Below, in pieces: positions 30,012 to 34,860 of a DNA stretch of 41,770 bases. The DNA comes from Bacillota bacterium (GTDB taxonomy: Bacteria > Bacillota > Bacilli > Alicyclobacillales > SLC66), in NCBI GenBank assembly GCA_026627345.1, contig JAPNUP010000047.1, positions 1 to 41,770 of the forward strand. Reading direction: 5' to 3'. The notes below the pieces were generated by a model. That model worked only from the letters and a program-made list of their open reading frames with translations. It was not told the origin of the DNA and searched no databases. The number at the start of each line of letters is the position of its first letter. Position 1 is the first letter of the stretch. The position numbers and the translations under genes were made by a program.

Positions 30012-30683
30012 ATGGCACTGTTCAAACGGATACGCGACATTACGGCAGCGTCGGTGAACGATATGTTGGATAAGGCCGAAGATCCTGTCAAGATGATCAA
30101 TCAGTTTTTGCGCGATATGGAGTCTGATATTGCTGACGCTGAACTTTCTGTCTCAAAGCAGATCGCGATGGAAAAGCGCTTTAAAGAGCAGCGCGATGAA
30201 GCTGCCGCACTGGTGGAAAAACGCCAAGAACAAGCGGTCAAGGCGCTTGAGCTGGGCAATGAAGAACTCGCTCGCAAGGCCTTGCAAGACAAGAAAGAGC
30301 AGCAAGAGCGCCTGGATACCTTTACCCAAGAACACGATAAAGCACTGGTGCTTTCAGAGAGCCTGCGCCAGAAGTTGGACGAGATGAAAGATGAATATAC
30401 GAAGATGAAGGGCCGCCGCGAGATGTTGGTGGCGCGTGCCGATGCGGCTAAAGTGCAGACACAGATCAACCATGCTATGGGCAGTTTCAACAGTGACAGC
30501 GCGTCGCGGGGTTTTGCGCGCATGGAAGAGAAAGTGATGCAGATGGAAGCGCAAGCTGAAGCGAGCAACGAACTGCACGGTGGTCATCAGTCTATCGACG
30601 ATGAGCTACGCTCCTTGGATAGCGGCGTCGATGACGAACTGGCAGCGCTAAAAGCAAAACTGGCGCAAAAGTCAGAAGCCTGA
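30012..30683 (+). CDS. pspA: Phage shock protein A / IM30 membrane-protecting protein
   Basis: 223 aa, ATG after ATGAGGAGG. Nearly all helical and coiled: starts MALFKRIRDITAASVNDMLDKAEDPVKMINQFLRDME, which includes the amphipathic membrane-binding helix and the conserved EDP turn. ESCRT-III-related proteins of this family polymerise on damaged membranes. It is served by a sigma-W type promoter, so it is a cell-envelope stress gene. Behind the stop lies an inserted palindromic element, then the terminator. Confidence 0.95.
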   Translation: MALFKRIRDITAASVNDMLDKAEDPVKMINQFLRDMESDIADAELSVSKQIAMEKRFKEQRDEAAALVEKRQEQAVKALELGNEELARKALQDKKEQQERLDTFTQEHDKALVLSESLRQKLDEMKDEYTKMKGRREMLVARADAAKVQTQINHAMGSFNSDSASRGFARMEEKVMQMEAQAEASNELHGGHQSIDDELRSLDSGVDDELAALKAKLAQKSEA

Positions 30684-30698
30684 TGCACCAAGACTTCG

Positions 30699-30890
30699 CT
30701 ATCAGTAACTGTTCAAAAAGTGTCGAGGTAAGACGTGCGTGGGAGAGGCGGCAGGCCGTTTTCAGCGCGCGGAGTGTACGTAGTCGGTACATGAGCACGT
30801 TGGAAACGGCCTGCCGCCTCTCCGGCGCTACGGAGTTCACGGGCGCATACCTGCGCCATTGGACACGTTTTGAACAACCTCTATCAGTAA
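30699..30890. mobile_element. 172-bp MITE-like nested inverted-repeat element with 10-bp flanking direct repeat
   Basis: CTATCAGTAA occurs at 30699-30708 and again at 30881-30890. Between them: outer inverted repeat TGTTCAAAAAGTGTC (30710-30724) versus GACACGTTTTGAACA (30862-30876), 14 of 15 paired; inner arms of 22 bp at 30742-30763 and 30802-30823 with one mismatch; central loop with TGTAC/GTACA. No coding frame of its own. This is the structure of a non-autonomous insertion with target-site duplication. Reconstructing the empty site puts the pspA stop about 15 bases from its terminator. Confidence 0.7.
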
Positions 30891-30935
30891 GGGTCAGAGA
30901 CAGCGAGTGTGCTGTCTCTGACCCTTACTTTGTTT
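30886..30935 (+). terminator. pspA terminator, displaced by the inserted element
   Basis: 19-bp perfect stem, AGTAAGGGTCAGAG...C (30886-30904) with its complement (30911-30929), loop GAGTGT, TTGTTT tail. Its left arm contains the end of the flanking direct repeat. Confidence 0.85.
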
Positions 30936-34696: not shown

Positions 34697-34860
34697 AACT
34701 CTTATCGAGAGTGGCGGAGGGACTGGCCCTTTGAAGCCCGGCAACCGTCTTTGCAGATGCAAAGATAGGTGCTAATTCCAGCAAAAGCGCGTGCGCTTTT
34801 GGGAGATGAGAGGGGTGCTTTGCTATATTTGTGTAACCCCCTCTCTGCGAGGGGGTTTTT
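34697..34860 (+). promoter_or_regulatory. SAM-I (S-box) riboswitch with terminator, upstream of metX
   Basis: Canonical aptamer: P1 strand CTCTTATC (34699-34706), then GAGAG, GGAGGGACTGGCCC, TGAAGCCCGGCAACC, GGTGCTAATTCC, and closing GATGAGAG (34805-34812). The expression platform has terminator AACCCCCTC (34835-34843) / GAGGGGGTT (34849-34857) plus T5. GAGAGGGGT at the aptamer end can pair with ACCCCCTCTC as antiterminator. SAM binding should stop transcription of metX and hom. The GAGGGGG arm also serves as the metX Shine-Dalgarno. Confidence 0.97.

Follow-up and report, generated by a model that had tools for sequence, protein, structure and literature searches.

The pspA locus and the inserted palindrome

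The window analysed here, a DNA stretch of 41,770 nucleotides, carries the stress gene pspA, followed by an intrinsic terminator and, beyond the terminator, a convergent 89-aa ORF that has no Pfam match. A long palindrome lies between the pspA stop codon and the terminator stem. Comparison with other copies, described below, defines it as an element with terminal inverted repeats and an inner hairpin, inserted about 20 nt 3′ of the stop codon at the AT-rich site C-TATCA-G. Elsewhere in the window, a SAM riboswitch is found at 34699–34812 (RF00162, 88.5 bits). The features of the locus are as follows.

30012–30683, plus strand: pspA, PspA/IM30 family, 223 aa (Pfam PF04012, E = 8e-47), the upstream neighbour of the element
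30700–30704, no strand: left target-site duplication TATCA, from copy comparison (a 5-bp duplication is the rule, 73/96 copies)
30705–30881, plus strand: the complete 177-bp mobile element, read from its left end, from alignment with the five other copies of its own genome and with relatives
30705–30727, plus strand: left terminal inverted repeat GTAACTGTTCAAAAAGTGTCGAG (GTGAC start in most other copies of this genome)
30737–30828, plus strand: inner hairpin with 34-nt arms, from covariation across copies
30765–30798, plus strand: conserved asymmetric core GCGCGCGGAGTGTACGTAGTCGGTACATGAGCAC at the hairpin tip, near-invariant in three genera and recognisable order-wide
30839–30859, plus strand: 21-bp extra stretch, from alignment, confined to this genome's long form (4/6 copies)
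30860–30881, minus strand: right terminal inverted repeat, GAGGTTGTTCAAAACGTGTCCA on the minus strand
30882–30886, no strand: right target-site duplication TATCA, from copy comparison
30886–30929, plus strand: intrinsic terminator of pspA, perfect 19-bp stem with T-rich tail, intact

The original prediction of a palindromic element between pspA and its terminator, flanked by direct repeats, proved real. The outer arms, TGTTCAAAAAGTGTC and GACACGTTTTGAACA, are present as claimed, and the inner arms (30737–30770 and 30795–30828) are 85% complementary. Folding of positions 30680–30910 gave −118.6 kcal/mol (z = −9.0 against shuffled sequences). The exact 10-bp direct repeat CTATCAGTAA is found at 30699–30708 and 30881–30890; 3000 positions drawn at random from the window yielded no such repeat at equal spacing. 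As proposed, the right repeat is part of the pspA terminator in that it runs into the stem. The target site lies outside the terminator except for one stem base.

Two of the earlier figures had to be corrected. The element measures 177 bp rather than 172 bp, and the target duplication is the 5-bp TATCA instead of 10 bp, both as judged from the other copies. The match is longer than the duplication because the last base of the element, C, equals the C of the left flank, and because its left end reads GTAA, identical to the first bases of the GTAAGG found just after the target site. In most other copies of the same genome, this left end reads GTGA.

Copies in the host genome and the unfilled site

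The search for further copies that the prediction called for brought the total in the host genome to at least six, each at a different site. They share 95–97% identity and occur in both orientations. All are intergenic, none of the six interrupts an ORF, and in three cases a stop codon is no more than about 30 nt away. Four copies have the long form (177/173 bp), while the other two, of 156 bp, lack the 21-bp internal stretch; one copy (C101) has no clear target duplication. In addition, a solo right end is located between argG and argH (G000:C16:11437-11457, L014).

The pspA region of a relative, also suggested for comparison, was inspected in one congener (G001). There, the order of pspA, terminator and convergent gene is unchanged and the element is absent, leaving an unfilled gap between pspA and its terminator; the same matched points are 96 bp apart, compared with 258 bp when the element is present.

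Distribution and conservation in the order

A covariance model trained on 16 copies detected the family in 14 of the 59 genomes of the order, covering 8 of 25 genera and both families. Because the palindrome scores on both strands, match counts exceed the number of elements, as in the host genome, where nine matches correspond to the six known elements. A search with the end pattern yielded 143 hits in genome G016, with zero for reversed-pattern controls, and others in G012, G013 and G014. None of the copies contains a transposase reading frame, and element sizes range from 154 to 177 bp, with terminal inverted repeats of about 23 bp (87% complementary in one G016 copy). A 1.6-Mb portion of genome G015 carries 27 elements, all of 154–158 bp, of which 25 interrupt no ORF of at least 100 aa. 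The ends of the close subfamilies were found in none of 397 other genomes of the phylum.

Distant members, with ends of the GAGGTTGTCCGGAAAGGGGTCAG type, keep the same layout with inverted ends and 5-bp duplications. Conserved inside their left and right ends are GGTAAGA and GGAGTTCT, respectively, and the core at their hairpin tip resembles AGCGTACG...GGTACGTGAGGGAGC. In the close subfamilies, the asymmetric core GCGCGCGGAGTGTAC...GGTACATGAGCAC is nearly invariant. Their alignment shows double-sided changes in 20 of 54 pairs, with 97.7% of cells pairing; none of 500 shuffles was as good, and slid controls reached 28–49%. Order-wide, double changes occur at 30 of 44 predicted pairs. Such covariation is not proof of RNA function, since palindromes can also be preserved by template-switch correction.

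Several variants of this layout were observed. Two paired copies in G012 (L217:8245-8524 and L220:4954-5233) are 280 bp long and contain a nested second palindrome of about 122 bp, GGGACATGTGATAA...TTATCACATGTCCC. Six others (L219:4818, L230:458, L216:4647, L227:4824, L229:5017 and L228:5105-5178) are remnants that kept both ends and lost the hairpin. Short repeats (CTT or CC) are present at the junction of these remnants, as expected from slippage at a palindrome.

Target duplication and asymmetry of the ends

Among 96 pooled copies, 73 are flanked by an exact 5-bp duplication with the consensus T-W-W-W-A, preferentially preceded by C and followed by G (C-TWWWA-G). The two ends are not equally conserved: terminal bases deviate at 43 of 576 positions on the left and at only 5 of 576 on the right, and the five leftmost positions of G016-type copies are about tenfold more variable than the interior. 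This asymmetry is not predicted by a simple symmetric cut-and-paste model and bears on the mechanism. Copying of the deviant left-end bases from the target is only marginally supported, with 11 of 25 equal to the target base against 6.8 expected (p = 0.047). Long matches between left end and target are seen in two copies (L182:2033 and L041). Solo ends also occur in this material: an 18-bp solo right end, GAGGTTGTTCAAAAAGG, has CTATAA on both sides (G015:C1:870641, L335), and a similar 34-bp case (L213:4829) is flanked by TATAT.

Search for an autonomous partner and for prior records

The transposase with matching ends that the original prediction suggested looking for was not found. In the host genome, ends outside the six copies are either the solo end or lie in or next to non-transposase genes, giving no autonomous partner. 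In the G016 regions that were read, every end pair was MITE-sized and unpaired good matches lay at contig ends, and the 1.6 Mb of G015 yielded no insertion sequence (IS) with matching ends. Solo ends in G012, G013 and G014 were considered as possible autonomous copies and turned out to be remnants without the hairpin, copies in decay or copies truncated by a contig end. G016 also contains a decayed transposon of the Tn3 family (L208:4363-8237, G016:C55), which carries a tyrosine recombinase and a TnpA with a frameshift; its tnpA was rejected as a partner, no element-like inverted repeat being present around it. Searches for Tn3 TnpA gave no match in the host genome (G000) or in G012, G015 and G017. 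A parent IS could be missing from these fragmented draft assemblies as a collapsed repeat; candidates for the source of mobility are a known DDE IS, a Tn3-type element or an unlinked enzyme.

Plasmid sequences gave no useful match to the window element or to a distant subfamily member, the element end producing chance matches only, and IMG/VR viral contigs gave no match with two end patterns. In Rfam, the only matches of the region were miRNA-type or sRNA chance matches below threshold, and the literature on MITEs in Alicyclobacillus held no match to the family. As far as Rfam, plasmids, viral contigs and the literature were searched, the family seems to have no earlier record.

Nature of the element

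The copies are scattered members of one family: their ends are inverted, they duplicate 5 bp of the target, they sit between genes, and compensating changes preserve their fold. The sequence behind pspA is very probably a non-autonomous, MITE-like DNA element that entered C-TATCA-G and was moved in trans by a putative transposase, and the family is best read as a new and unusually long-lived MITE family. The MITE-like half of the original description is upheld by the multiple copies at differing sites, the duplications and the unfilled site of the congener. Its REP-like half does not hold, given the true terminal inverted repeats and the fixed duplication. In the mechanism we envisage, a transposase acting in trans would bind the TGTTCAAAAAG-type ends and make 5-bp staggered cuts at C-TWWWA-G, after which the gaps would be filled. 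Preservation of the hairpin and its invariant core may reflect a requirement of the mobilising machinery or, in part, self-correction of the palindrome.

The alternatives concern both mobility and origin. The view of the sequence as an immobile, ancestral RNA structure or pspA attenuator is scarcely credible despite the very strong fold and the covariation, since the element is absent behind pspA in G001 and other relatives and five further copies, with target duplications, stand at unrelated genes. A weak, decayed similarity directly behind pspA in Alicyclobacillus sp. SP_1 (L061:4676-4754; blastn 74% over 81 nt) would favour this explanation; however, the covariance model does not confirm it, and it is possibly an independent insertion. 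A RAYT-mobilised repeat of the REP or REPIN type would likewise be palindromic, intergenic and without a linked transposase, but inverted ends with a constant 5-bp target duplication, and a size of 154–177 bp, far above the 20–40 bp of REPs, make this very improbable. Tn3-derived miniature elements (TIMEs) are non-coding and have inverted ends and AT-rich 5- or 6-bp duplications such as TTTATT (PMC4133298), all of which resemble the present element and its TWWWA sites. The decayed Tn3 TnpA in copy-rich G016 also points this way. Nevertheless, the inverted repeats described here begin with GAG or GTG and lose similarity after about 23 bp, compared with 38-bp Tn3 repeats, and the elements are shorter than the 262 bp of the TIME; together with the lack of TnpA matches in four genomes and of a flanking element-like inverted repeat around the G016 tnpA, this renders mobilisation by a Tn3-family TnpA in trans unlikely.

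With regard to origin, and as a special case of the MITE reading, the element may have arisen by deletion within an IS of an existing DDE family that makes 5-bp duplications, the intact IS being absent from the assemblies. We regard this as a real possibility to be held tentatively: IS deletion is the usual origin of MITEs, and repeats break these assemblies, whereas one would not expect a recent deletion product to show the same 155-bp core and structure through eight genera and two families, and no IS bearing these ends was found in the 1.6 Mb of G015. A more speculative and rather doubtful proposal is that the family persists in the order as a non-coding mobile element in its own right, instead of being a set of fresh IS deletion products. 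Its fold and tip core would then be recognised by an unlinked, possibly host-resident enzyme, with the right end cut exactly and the left joined loosely, sometimes taking up target bases.

Comparison with known repeat systems

The bcr1 repeat of the Bacillus cereus group is about 155 bp long and strongly folded. Together with other B. cereus group A repeats, it is described as non-coding, MITE-like, associated with TTTAT, present in high copy number and often found in UTRs (PMC6542083, PMC3446304). Compared by description only, these repeats resemble the present element in being non-coding and MITE-like and in the TTTAT motif, but they differ in host range, which is reportedly confined to the B. 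cereus group. NEMIS or Correia elements of Neisseria have a 155-bp form and are largely intergenic and folded (PMC2229807); they share size, placement and fold with the present element, while their ends are different and the 5-bp duplication contrasts with the TA motif usual in bacterial repeats. The Yersinia YPAL or RU-2 element is a 168-bp palindrome that is not AT-rich, produces target duplications and is mobile as judged by empty and filled sites (PMC2229807). All these traits recur here; however, the duplications made by YPAL range between 3 and 26 bp and its inverted repeats lie internally, in contrast to the constant 5 bp and terminal repeats of the present family.

Consequences for pspA and significance

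The pspA terminator survived the insertion intact, and we do not expect termination to be lost. The predicted pspA 3′ UTR would gain some 180 nt of strongly folded RNA, which may plausibly have a mild effect on how stable the mRNA is or how it is processed. Repeats of a comparable kind are frequently transcribed as part of UTRs. In B. cereus, mRNA decay correlated with bcr3 and not with bcr1 (PMC3446304), while NEMIS transcripts in Neisseria are proposed RNase III targets, which would affect the neighbouring mRNA (PMC2229807).

MITEs usually have no preserved interior. The single insertion at pspA is ordinary; what is unusual is the family, with a fold and core kept order-wide and an autonomous partner not found in the drafts examined. 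The locus illustrates how the 3′ UTR of a stress gene can gain a large hairpin with its terminator kept. More broadly, a gene-less element of about 155 bp has held its fold and core motif constant through at least eight genera, and the family thus offers a test case for structure-recognising enzymes as opposed to dependence on a parent IS.
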